From positions 1 through 64,000 of the forward strand of contig JACDDA010000007.1 of assembly GCA_013817245.1 (NCBI GenBank): a stretch of 64,000 bases of DNA, read 5' to 3'. The notes beneath the pieces are model-generated. The model saw only the letters and a list, made by a program, of their open reading frames with translations, was not told where the DNA came from and did not search any database. This document shows positions 3,178 to 52,975 of this stretch, in pieces (position 1 is the stretch's first letter; each line of letters begins with the position of its first letter). The stretch is from Gammaproteobacteria bacterium. Lineage in GTDB: Bacteria; Pseudomonadota; Gammaproteobacteria; HTCC5015. A program made the translations under genes and the position numbers.

Positions 3178-3211
3178 GCTAGGCGATTGAGCCCCCACTC
3201 TTCCGCCTAGC
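3178..3211. repeat. 8-bp perfect inverted repeat in a convergent intergenic gap
   Basis: GCTAGGCG (3178-3185) and CGCCTAGC (3204-3211) are exact reverse complements separated by 18 bases. They lie between the 3' ends of the MBL gene and the LuxR-type gene. No T-run follows on either strand, so it would be a weak intrinsic terminator at best. Confidence 0.35.
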
Positions 3212-3328
3212 TAGCACACTTCGCCCAACACACCTATCATTCAATCAATAATATGTGTGCGAGACTGTAAAGAATTTTTATCAAACCTACATCATCCAAA
3301 TGGATGATAAAAATAGTATTTACGTAAT

Positions 3329-4480
3329 TTATCGCCGCTTAGAAGTACTGCTGAGCAAAATAGGTGCTTTTAATAAACTACTTACTAATTCAGCCTGTCG
3401 TCTAGTTTGAGTTTTTGCAAAAATACTTTGCAATTGTGAACGTACGGTATTTTTAGAAACTTGCAAATGGCTAGCAATTTCATTGAGCTCATAACCATTA
3501 ATTAACTCATTTACCAAACGACTTTCCGCGGGTGTTAATTGATATAAAGCTTCTAATATTTCATAAGGATATTGTAGCTTTTGCTCTACTCGCATAATAA
3601 ACAAAGTCGCCACAGTCGGTTGGGAAATATAATCCAGCGGTGGGGCTAATTGTCTGGTAGGACAAAAAACCATATTTAAGGGCGACAAATGAGGTTTTGG
3701 CGAAGGAATATTTAACGCAGCATCCGCCGCGCCAACCTGTCCCTCCACAATGCGAGCCAACACCGCATCTATTTTAATTTGTAAAGCATGAGACTTGGCG
3801 CAAAACTTTCCTTGGCGAATATCTAGTCCATAAGCCTCTCGAAGAATATCTATGGCCGCCCTATTAAAATGCACTACTTTTTTATTAGCATCAAAAAATA
3901 ACTGGCCAATGGACATTTTATTAAACGCATCATCAACAATTTGTAGCTTAGCTTCGGCTTGTAAAAGTTTTTTAGAGAGGTTCAGCGATTTTTTAATATG
4001 GGGAAATAAAAACTCTATGCTCTTTAACTCTTCTTTATTGAAGAAGTCGCCTTTCAATCCCCGCGAAAAACGAATTTGAGCCTGATAATCAACTTCATGC
4101 ACTGCATATCCACCTCCGCAATAATAGTTATTTTGCGGCTTTAGAAATTCATTGAAATATTGAGACCTTAGAAACTGTTCGCGACTATAAAAATCTTCAC
4201 TCGCATAGGCAACACCTTCAACCGTTTGAGAAAAAAGCTGAGGGTATGGATCGATACCAGCATAATAAGCGCCGTATTGTTGCAAAGCGGAAGACTCATA
4301 ACCATGCGCAAAAGCTTGATTAAGCCTGACATCAGAATCAGCACTAATACGTAATAACATAGAATCGCATTGTGTTTGTCGACAGATATTATCGAGGCAC
4401 GCTTGCCACCGCGTACTATCACTCGCGGCATCATATATATCAGTAATTAAAGCCAATAAATCTAATTGCCTATCTTCCAT
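3329..4480 (-). CDS. LuxR-family transcriptional regulator
   Basis: The 383-residue protein ends in a LuxR-type HTH (about residues 315-375). The segment LTPAESRLVNELINGYELNEIA is followed by the recognition helix VSKNTVRSQLQSIFAKT. The N-terminal 180 residues (TRWQACLDNICRQTQCDSM) resemble the unannotated sensory region of many proteobacterial LuxR proteins. The middle (residues 185-215, FFDANKKVVHFNRAAIDIL) looks PAS-like. No receiver or acyl-homoserine-lactone domain is apparent. It stands alone between convergent neighbours, so its targets are unknown. The upstream 146 bp before ffh is A+T-rich and probably holds its promoter. Confidence 0.85.
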   Translation of the reverse strand: MEDRQLDLLALITDIYDAASDSTRWQACLDNICRQTQCDSMLLRISADSDVRLNQAFAHGYESSALQQYGAYYAGIDPYPQLFSQTVEGVAYASEDFYSREQFLRSQYFNEFLKPQNNYYCGGGYAVHEVDYQAQIRFSRGLKGDFFNKEELKSIEFLFPHIKKSLNLSKKLLQAEAKLQIVDDAFNKMSIGQLFFDANKKVVHFNRAAIDILREAYGLDIRQGKFCAKSHALQIKIDAVLARIVEGQVGAADAALNIPSPKPHLSPLNMVFCPTRQLAPPLDYISQPTVATLFIMRVEQKLQYPYEILEALYQLTPAESRLVNELINGYELNEIASHLQVSKNTVRSQLQSIFAKTQTRRQAELVSSLLKAPILLSSTSKRR

Positions 4481-41541: not shown

Positions 41542-41579
41542 ATTGTTTTATTTTAGCTTTTTAATAGCAGAGCATAACC

Positions 41580-41649
41580 GTTTCGCTCGTCGCTACGCGA
41601 CTACAGCGAGTAACTTTTTGTCGTAACAAAAAGTCACCAAAAAATACTT
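41580..41649 (+). repeat. Left terminal inverted repeat of element A
   Basis: Begins GTTTCGCTCGTCGCTACGCG and ends AAAAAATACTT. Every one of its 70 bases is matched in reverse complement at 42064-42133; after one mismatch two further bases also agree. Confidence 0.9.
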
Positions 41650-42063
41650 GCCCGGATGTTGTGTGCGTTAATGGAATTAAATTCCATTAACGCATGCCCT
41701 CGCGATGTTTAAGGGCTAACGCGTCGCCTCAACGCAACATCCTGTTGCGATCGGCTCACATGAACATCCCTGTTCATATGCCGCTATCCCTTAAACACAG
41801 CTCGGCACACCATAACGGGCATTATCCCTTCGTTTAGGATCAGCCAAACTTAAAACGTTTTCTAAGATTGATGTGCTTCAAAAACAGGACGAAGTAAATA
41901 CCCCTCATGACTCACCGAGTGTTGCGAGGCTTGTAGGGGAAAACAAACAGGAGGTTTGTTTTAGTCCCGCCGCGACAAGGACGGCGCGTCGGGACGACCC
42001 GTTACAAGTCGCGCAATACGAGGGTACTGCGCGTGTTGTTTGCGCGCAGCGAGACGTTGGGGA

Positions 42064-42133
42064 AAGTATTTTTTGGTGACTTTTTGTTACGACAAAAAGT
42101 TACTCGCTGTAGTCGCGTAGCGACGAGCGAAAC
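42064..42133 (-). repeat. Right terminal inverted repeat of element A
   Basis: Exact reverse complement of 41580-41649. Near-identical sequence recurs at the right end of copy B (about 52754-52822). Confidence 0.9.
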
Positions 42134-42194
42134 ACTTTTGTTTTTAATTAAATTAAAACACGCGCAGCGTTTTTAAATTTCAGAAGTTAAAAAA

Positions 42195-52120: not shown

Positions 52121-52148
52121 ATGCTTTAATTGAATTAAAAAATAAAGC

Positions 52149-52822
52149 GTTTCGCTCGTCGCTCGCTACGCGACTACAGCGAGTAACTTTTGAATGGCAT
52201 GAATGCGGATTTTGCAGGAGCAAAAATTTGCTGTCGTCATAACAATGTATTTTCTATAAAAGTATTTTATTAGCCGGTTGCGCACCGGCGGGCGGTTACT
52301 TTCTTGTCGCGACAAGAAAGTAACCAAAGAAGCGCTTCCCCATGTCTCCCTGCGCGTAAATATTACGCGCAGTTCCCGTCGCGTTTGATCTGTTGTTGCG
52401 GGTAGTCACGACGCGACATCCCTGTCGCGGCGTGACTAAAACAAACGTCCTGTTTGTTTTTCCCGACAACCGTTCAAATGCTCGGCGGGCCATGAGGGGA
52501 ATGTTCCTTTGTTTAAATTCACGAATGAATAAACATCTTGAGAAGTTAAAAATCTCTTTGTGCTCAAACGAAGGGATAATGCCCGTTATGGTGTGCTGAG
52601 CTGTGTTTAAGGGGTAGCGACACATGAACAGGGATCTTCAGGTGAGCCGATCGCAACAGGATGTTGCGTTGAGGCGACGCGTTAGCCCTTAAAACACGAC
52701 GAGGGCATGCTTGAATGAAATGCTATTTCATTCAGGCGCACGCTATTCGGGCGAGTACTTTTTGGTGACTTTTTGTTACGACAAAAAGTTACTCGCTGTA
52801 GTCGCATAGCGACGAGCGAAAC
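52149..52822 (-). mobile_element. Hairpin-rich repeat element, copy B, inverted relative to copy A
   Basis: Read on the reverse strand it aligns with copy A over its length. Shared blocks include the right terminal repeat (about 52754-52822), GCAACA-GGA-TGTTGC (52653-52667), CCATAACGGGCATTATCCC, AAAACAAAC-GTCCT-GTTTGTTTT (52438-52460) and the 34-base hairpin 52404-52437. The left end differs: only 52149-52191 matches the terminal repeat (with a 4-bp duplication). About 102 bp of unrelated DNA follows, then a 32-bp perfect palindrome (52294-52325). No transposase gene is present. Confidence 0.8.
52294..52325. repeat. 32-bp perfect palindrome in element B
   Basis: The sequence from GGTTACTTTCTTGTCG to its mirror CGACAAGAAAGTAACC is fully self-complementary with no spacer. 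It occupies the place of the 28-base imperfect palindrome of the copy A terminal repeat. Confidence 0.9.
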
Positions 52823-52975
52823 GCTTTTTTTAATATTAAATCTATCAGCATCAAAAAATACGCTATCAGTTAAATCGCCGAATCTATTAAGAAATTCATC
52901 AGTGTTTTCAAAAAAAGACATAACTCACCAACTCACTAAAAGTATAGCGAGCATAAAAGCAAATCGATGGCATTG

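Follow-up and report, generated by a model that had tools for sequence, protein, structure and literature searches.

A dispersed inverted-end repeat with two divergent TwoAYGGAY arms and its putative link to CsrA

What kind of element is the non-coding repeat with inverted ends that lies in the 64,000-nucleotide stretch of gammaproteobacterial DNA analysed here (the window), and which role may its hairpin-rich interior play? An earlier note on this DNA had regarded it as a candidate for an undescribed system, with recent mobility or gene-conversion-like repair suggested by its ends. Its description as a dispersed, multicopy, inverted-end repeat without a transposase was borne out, while recent mobility and the undescribed status were not. 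According to our analysis the element is probably a dispersed, non-autonomous repeat whose arms, once transcribed, represent CsrA-binding RNAs.

Architecture of the element and its genomic copies

The inverted ends of the window copy comprise 81 nt each (41573-41653 and 42060-42140; 95% complementary) and share a perfect core of 70 bp (41580-41649 and 42064-42133), as the earlier note had described. The note was also right that the element lacks a transposase and coding content (no open reading frame of at least 100 aa was detected inside the window copy), that its interior is packed with numerous short hairpins and that an inverted homologue is located 10 kb away (Table 1). This second copy has a type-B left end (~52260-52330), an extra outer A-type end and a GGA module. 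Neither promoter-like nor terminator-like sites were found in the element.

Table 1. Features of the repeat element in the window.
Feature	Position	Strand	Remarks
Whole repeat element	41573..42140	.	one of ~12 full-length genome copies
Left inverted end	41573..41653	.	contains end hairpin 41610-41637 and outer hairpin GTCGCTACGCGAC
Right inverted end	42060..42140	.	contains end hairpin 42076-42103
Alpha arm, TwoAYGGAY RNA (RF01731)	41678..41824	-, outward	43.3 bits (cut-off 43); covariation
Alpha hairpin 1, ATGAACA-GGGA-TGTTCAT	41760..41777	-	CsrA-consensus-like loop ACAGGGAUGU
Alpha hairpin 2, CGCAACA-GGA-TGTTGCG	41733..41749	-	
Alpha hairpin 3	41664..41694	-	14-bp stem, covarying among copies; loop without GGA
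Variable centre separating both arms	41825..41907	.	no promoter-like site found
Beta arm, second TwoAYGGAY RNA (RF01731)	41908..42030	+, outward	43.2 bits; fold
Beta hairpin 1, AAAACAAAC-AGGAG-GTTTGTTTT	41940..41962	+	
Beta hairpin 2, CGCGAC-AAGGAC-GGCGCG	41971..41988	+	one mismatch here; perfect in most copies
Beta hairpin 3, CTGCGCG-loop-CGCGCAG	42027..42049	+	
Second window copy	52144..52828	.	inverted orientation; beta arm left, alpha arm right

Where the earlier note had known two copies, the 2.27-Mb assembly contains about 12 full-length and about 7 partial ones (about 18 loci), so that the note's refuting condition of just two genomic copies does not apply. The full-length copies are 77-86% identical, the same range as their interiors, compared with ~95% identity between copies at the ends, and two end types, A and B, are mixed in varying combinations. 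As a new observation, full copies always contain both arm types, one alpha and one beta, in divergent, outward-reading orientation. The stems of the two arm types differ throughout and the fold is common to both: from the centre outward, each arm comprises two GGA-loop hairpins, the first with the loop GGGA or AGGAN and the second with GGA or AAGGAC, then hairpin 3, a T-rich segment and, in last place, the end hairpin GTNACTTTTTGT-NNNN-ACAAAAAGTNAC. The use of two different arms may serve to avoid a long perfect palindrome.

In some copies (L131, L135-L139) the end hairpin is interrupted, always at the same insertion point, by a 49-nt module with two GGA-loop hairpins whose GGA lies on the inward strand. 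Genes were detected within related structures as well. In L149 (G051:C107, 6718-8298) a passenger gene of 317 aa, predicted to encode an SH3 and a staphylococcal-nuclease domain, is framed by the two divergent arms with their end hairpins, in L147 a helix-turn-helix gene is located between duplicated right ends, and in L130 two open reading frames (3195-3737, 180 aa; 3785-4150, 121 aa), neither with a Pfam or NCBIfam match, lie between two half elements. These genes were considered as parts of an autonomous version of the element and dismissed, as none of them encodes a transposase.

Relationship to the TwoAYGGAY RNA

Exactly two Rfam matches were obtained in the window, both to the TwoAYGGAY RNA (RF01731), one per element half, on opposite strands and directed outward. 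TwoAYGGAY was described as a motif without assigned function by Weinberg et al. 2010 (PMC2864571). With 43.3 and 43.2 bits the window copy barely reaches the curated gathering cut-off of 43 bits, and most other copies score 43-58 bits. The alignment spans the model from end to end, covering both GGA hairpins, the closing stem and the conserved unpaired residues. Two hairpins with AYGGAY-like loops are enclosed by one closing stem and GGA is present in both, although the loop letters mostly read A(N)GGA and do not strictly follow AYGGAY. The alpha arms furthermore show covariation (see below). The arms belong to RF01731, and the element can no longer be called undescribed since both halves reach the curated cut-off.

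It might be argued from scores of merely 43-58 bits that an unrelated repeat resembles RF01731 by a coincidence of GGA hairpins. This reading, already disfavoured, is extremely improbable, given that the matches are full-length on both arms and in most copies, extending over the closing stem of the multi-branch fold and over unpaired residues that are conserved, and that other genera show the same family with the same plan and higher scores (50-69 bits).

GGA loops, folding and covariation

The GGA loops of the hairpins, overlooked in the earlier note, are highly regular. The 12 copies examined, with their 24 arms, should contain 48 GGA hairpins; 44 of these possess a perfectly matched stem of six or more pairs, and in all 44 the loop carries its GGA on the outward strand, the reverse being found in none. 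The elements (10.9 kb) contain 72 GGA-loop hairpins compared with 12 in the 62.8 kb of window background, which corresponds to 35 times the density in the rest of the window; the respective numbers of WCANGGANGW sites are 28 and 7.

For either half of the window copy, the predicted fold lies far below those of dinucleotide shuffles (z = -6.4 and -7.5). In an alignment of the alpha arms from 17 loci, 11 pairs were altered on both sides, with 41 such cells, where shuffles gave 12.2 and controls with slid partners 2-6. For the beta arms 12 pairs altered on both sides were detected. Quasi-palindrome repair could account for part of the covariation in the hairpins, and less easily for that of the long closing helix of the alpha arm, which is not a simple palindrome and in which three pairs are altered on both sides.

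Link to CsrA

The host encodes CsrA (G000:C5:219930-220085, E 8.7e-25), and element loops such as ACAGGGAUGU agree with the CsrA/RsmA consensus RUACARGGAUGU (quoted in PMC7937890). The arms carry A(N)GGA in loops of their hairpins, as CsrA-titrating sRNAs do, and binding of TwoAYGGAY by CsrA has already been proposed in a motif study (PMC4333381). Among 398 genomes of the phylum, which are phylogenetically non-independent, the RF01731 motif was detected in 18 of 212 genera, and all 34 RF01731-positive genomes encode CsrA compared with 220 of the 398 overall, an association that is confounded by phylogeny because nearly all of the RF01731 matches are gammaproteobacterial.

In Pseudomonas putida, RNAs pulled down with RsmA, RsmE and RsmI included intergenic RNAs, among them palindromic regions adjoining ISPpu8, and the authors judged rsmY and rsmZ to be the main antagonists (PMC7937890). 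The "long palindromic region" of that study, which lies downstream of PP_3547 in strain KT2440, may be a relative of the present family. In the literature on CsrA-linked repeat families, the nearest cases found were only RsmU, Aln1 and this pull-down.

Occurrence in other genomes

In 35 relatives, of which three belong to the same family, no DNA match to the element was obtained at E 1e-10; plasmid and phage collections likewise yielded none. The divergent two-arm plan with end hairpins is also present in distant gammaproteobacterial genera. In a sample comprising one RF01731 match from each of 27 genomes, the strict end hairpin was located downstream of the match in 11 cases, in most of them followed by (C)TCGC (controls: 0), and a divergent partner upstream in 8 of 27 compared with 2 in the control. 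Many other RF01731 matches are single arms. Each full element of G160 and G270 likewise pairs two different arm types. In G550 (L170) the TwoAYGGAY unit occurs in tandem direct repetition with a period of ~577 bp.

Repeats of Rheinheimera, Burkholderiales, Thiohalophilus, Pseudoflavonifractor and others (L031-L075) share a terminal hairpin, ACTTTTTG-N6-CAAAAAGT and then (N)ACTCGC, and have quite dissimilar interiors. With regard to GGA loops, repeats with a similar end hairpin in CsrA-negative genomes (Flavisolibacter, Burkholderiales and a Ruminococcus) have GGA-loop hairpins in none of the cases. Of the CsrA-positive genomes, three possess GGA-loop hairpins and one more has a short version, whereas the end-hairpin repeats of Rheinheimera and of one Pseudoflavonifractor, both likewise with CsrA, lack GGA loops.

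Genomic placement and mobility

The neighbouring genes are convergent at 12 of the 18 loci, with gene calls uncertain at a few loci, compared with about 6 of the 26 longer gaps in the window. This placement, together with the strong folds and the precedent of the 3'-UTR-derived RsmA-binding RNA RsmU (PMC7694677), would be compatible with a REP/BIME-like element acting in cis, which ends and protects the transcripts of its convergent neighbours and at which CsrA, if involved, is bound locally rather than titrated. Five or six copies nevertheless have co-directional neighbours or an unclear context, a consensus terminator was not found, and such a role alone does not require two arms with conserved GGA loops. 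Taken together, a purely cis-acting element appears improbable.

An empty orthologous site, regarded in the earlier note as support for mobility, was found once: in G002, a member of the same family, the orthologues of lpd and of the GGDEF-EAL gene converge on a gap of ~22 bp that lacks the element, which fits either an insertion here or a loss in G002. The target duplications that the note had suggested looking for did not exceed chance, the best flanking direct repeats averaging 6.15 nt compared with 5.92 nt for mismatched flanks, with the exact ends of the element uncertain. The recent mobility assumed in the note is not supported, as copies are just 77-86% identical and target-site duplications not detectable. 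The identity of the two ends within a copy does not indicate recent movement either, because the ends are ~95% identical between copies too; the perfect ends rather reflect a conserved self-complementary terminal module that also occurs in other genomes.

The element is short, multicopy and devoid of a transposase and has terminal inverted repeats, as is characteristic of MITEs. Since MITE membership fails on the target duplication, the most that can be claimed is that it works like a non-autonomous mobile repeat. Mobility is supported by the dispersal of the copies and not by target duplications or a transposase. No transposase was found between element-type ends among the part of the genome's transposase genes that was searched. 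A Y1/RAYT transposase was considered as mobiliser and rejected: the flanks of the three genes in the genome are unrelated to the element, and no module was detected within ~1.5 kb of them, so that the element does not flank a RAYT gene as REP/BIME repeats do. The three Y1/RAYT-like genes (L190, L191, L192) are flanked by AAGGGGTCAGA-type palindromes, which constitute a separate repeat family.

Alternatively, the element may be a selfish, MITE-like or hairpin-recognised one, whose hairpins and loops would be DNA features recognised by a trans-supplied transposase or recombinase, with CsrA being irrelevant. The many dispersed copies with long inverted ends, the empty junction in G002, the nesting of modules at one point of the end hairpin and the similar terminal hairpin followed by CTCGC in other phyla lacking GGA loops are in line with this. 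However, apart from the missing target duplication and internal transposase and the unrelated flanks of the Y1/RAYT-like genes, it leaves the GGA on the outward strand only and the co-occurrence with CsrA unaccounted for, and seems rather unlikely.

Proposed role as a CsrA-binding repeat

In the reading favoured here, that of a dispersed repeat with CsrA-binding arms, the repeat would be composed of two TwoAYGGAY RNA domains in head-to-head arrangement, both reading from the centre towards the ends. Each domain is predicted to adopt a multi-branched fold with two A(N)GGA-loop hairpins, a third, covarying hairpin and a terminal hairpin located in the inverted end. Transcription of either strand, most likely by read-through from convergent neighbours, would generate one arm in sense, which presumably binds one CsrA dimer via its two GGA hairpins. 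Because the arm hairpins resemble CsrA docking sites, the repeat may sequester CsrA or attract it locally: about 18 loci would offer dozens of sites and could thereby titrate CsrA, and the element may also recruit CsrA to the 3' ends of adjacent mRNAs. Binding, transcription and titration are all inferred.

More tentatively, these repeats might be widespread gammaproteobacterial (once-)mobile elements with paired CsrA-binding RNA domains as cargo, i.e. genomic CsrA sponges spreading as repeats. Owing to their symmetry, a functional arm would be exposed whichever side transcription comes from, and the unlike arms would avoid a long perfect palindrome. We regard this generalisation as possible but doubtful.

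The loop sequence and the co-occurrence tie TwoAYGGAY, a motif without function since 2010, to CsrA and turn it into a testable case. If the proposal holds true, a repeat family could set the free level of the global regulator CsrA, and repeat copy number would be a hidden variable in CsrA/Rsm regulation.

Comparison with known systems

Several A(N)GGA hairpins in which the CsrA consensus is found are a feature that the element has in common with the CsrA-titrating sRNAs CsrB, RsmY and RsmZ. The latter are encoded by single promoter-driven genes with many sites, whereas the element is multicopy, offers two sites in each arm and lacks a recognised promoter; models of RsmY and RsmZ gave nothing over the cut-off in the host genome. 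RsmU of Xanthomonas (PMC7694677), an RsmA-binding RNA derived from an mRNA 3' UTR, resembles the proposed element RNA, but originates from one 3' UTR without Rfam homologue according to its authors, while the element forms a repeat family.

Among small dispersed inverted-end repeats of gammaproteobacteria, QMITE1 and QMITE2 of Coxiella (PMC5896051) are similar to the element by description. Some of them yield sRNAs and they are often located at gene 3' ends (PMC5896051); in contrast to the element they have direct repeats at their insertion sites, and CsrA is unmentioned in that study. REP/BIME sequences with RAYT transposases are dispersed intergenic palindromes as well. The element is far longer and has Rfam-matching arms, and the RAYT-like genes of this genome carry other flanking repeats.

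With TwoAYGGAY itself the arms share a full-length covariance-model match and two GGA hairpins in a multi-branch fold. No description of paired divergent arms in an inverted-end dispersed repeat was found in the literature on TwoAYGGAY. The RF01731 motif and its predicted CsrA binding were already known from others; the pairing of alpha and beta arms, the outward GGA, its 35-fold density and the covarying stems are new. TwoAYGGAY as published is a single motif, whereas here it is paired and divergent within a dispersed repeat with inverted ends.
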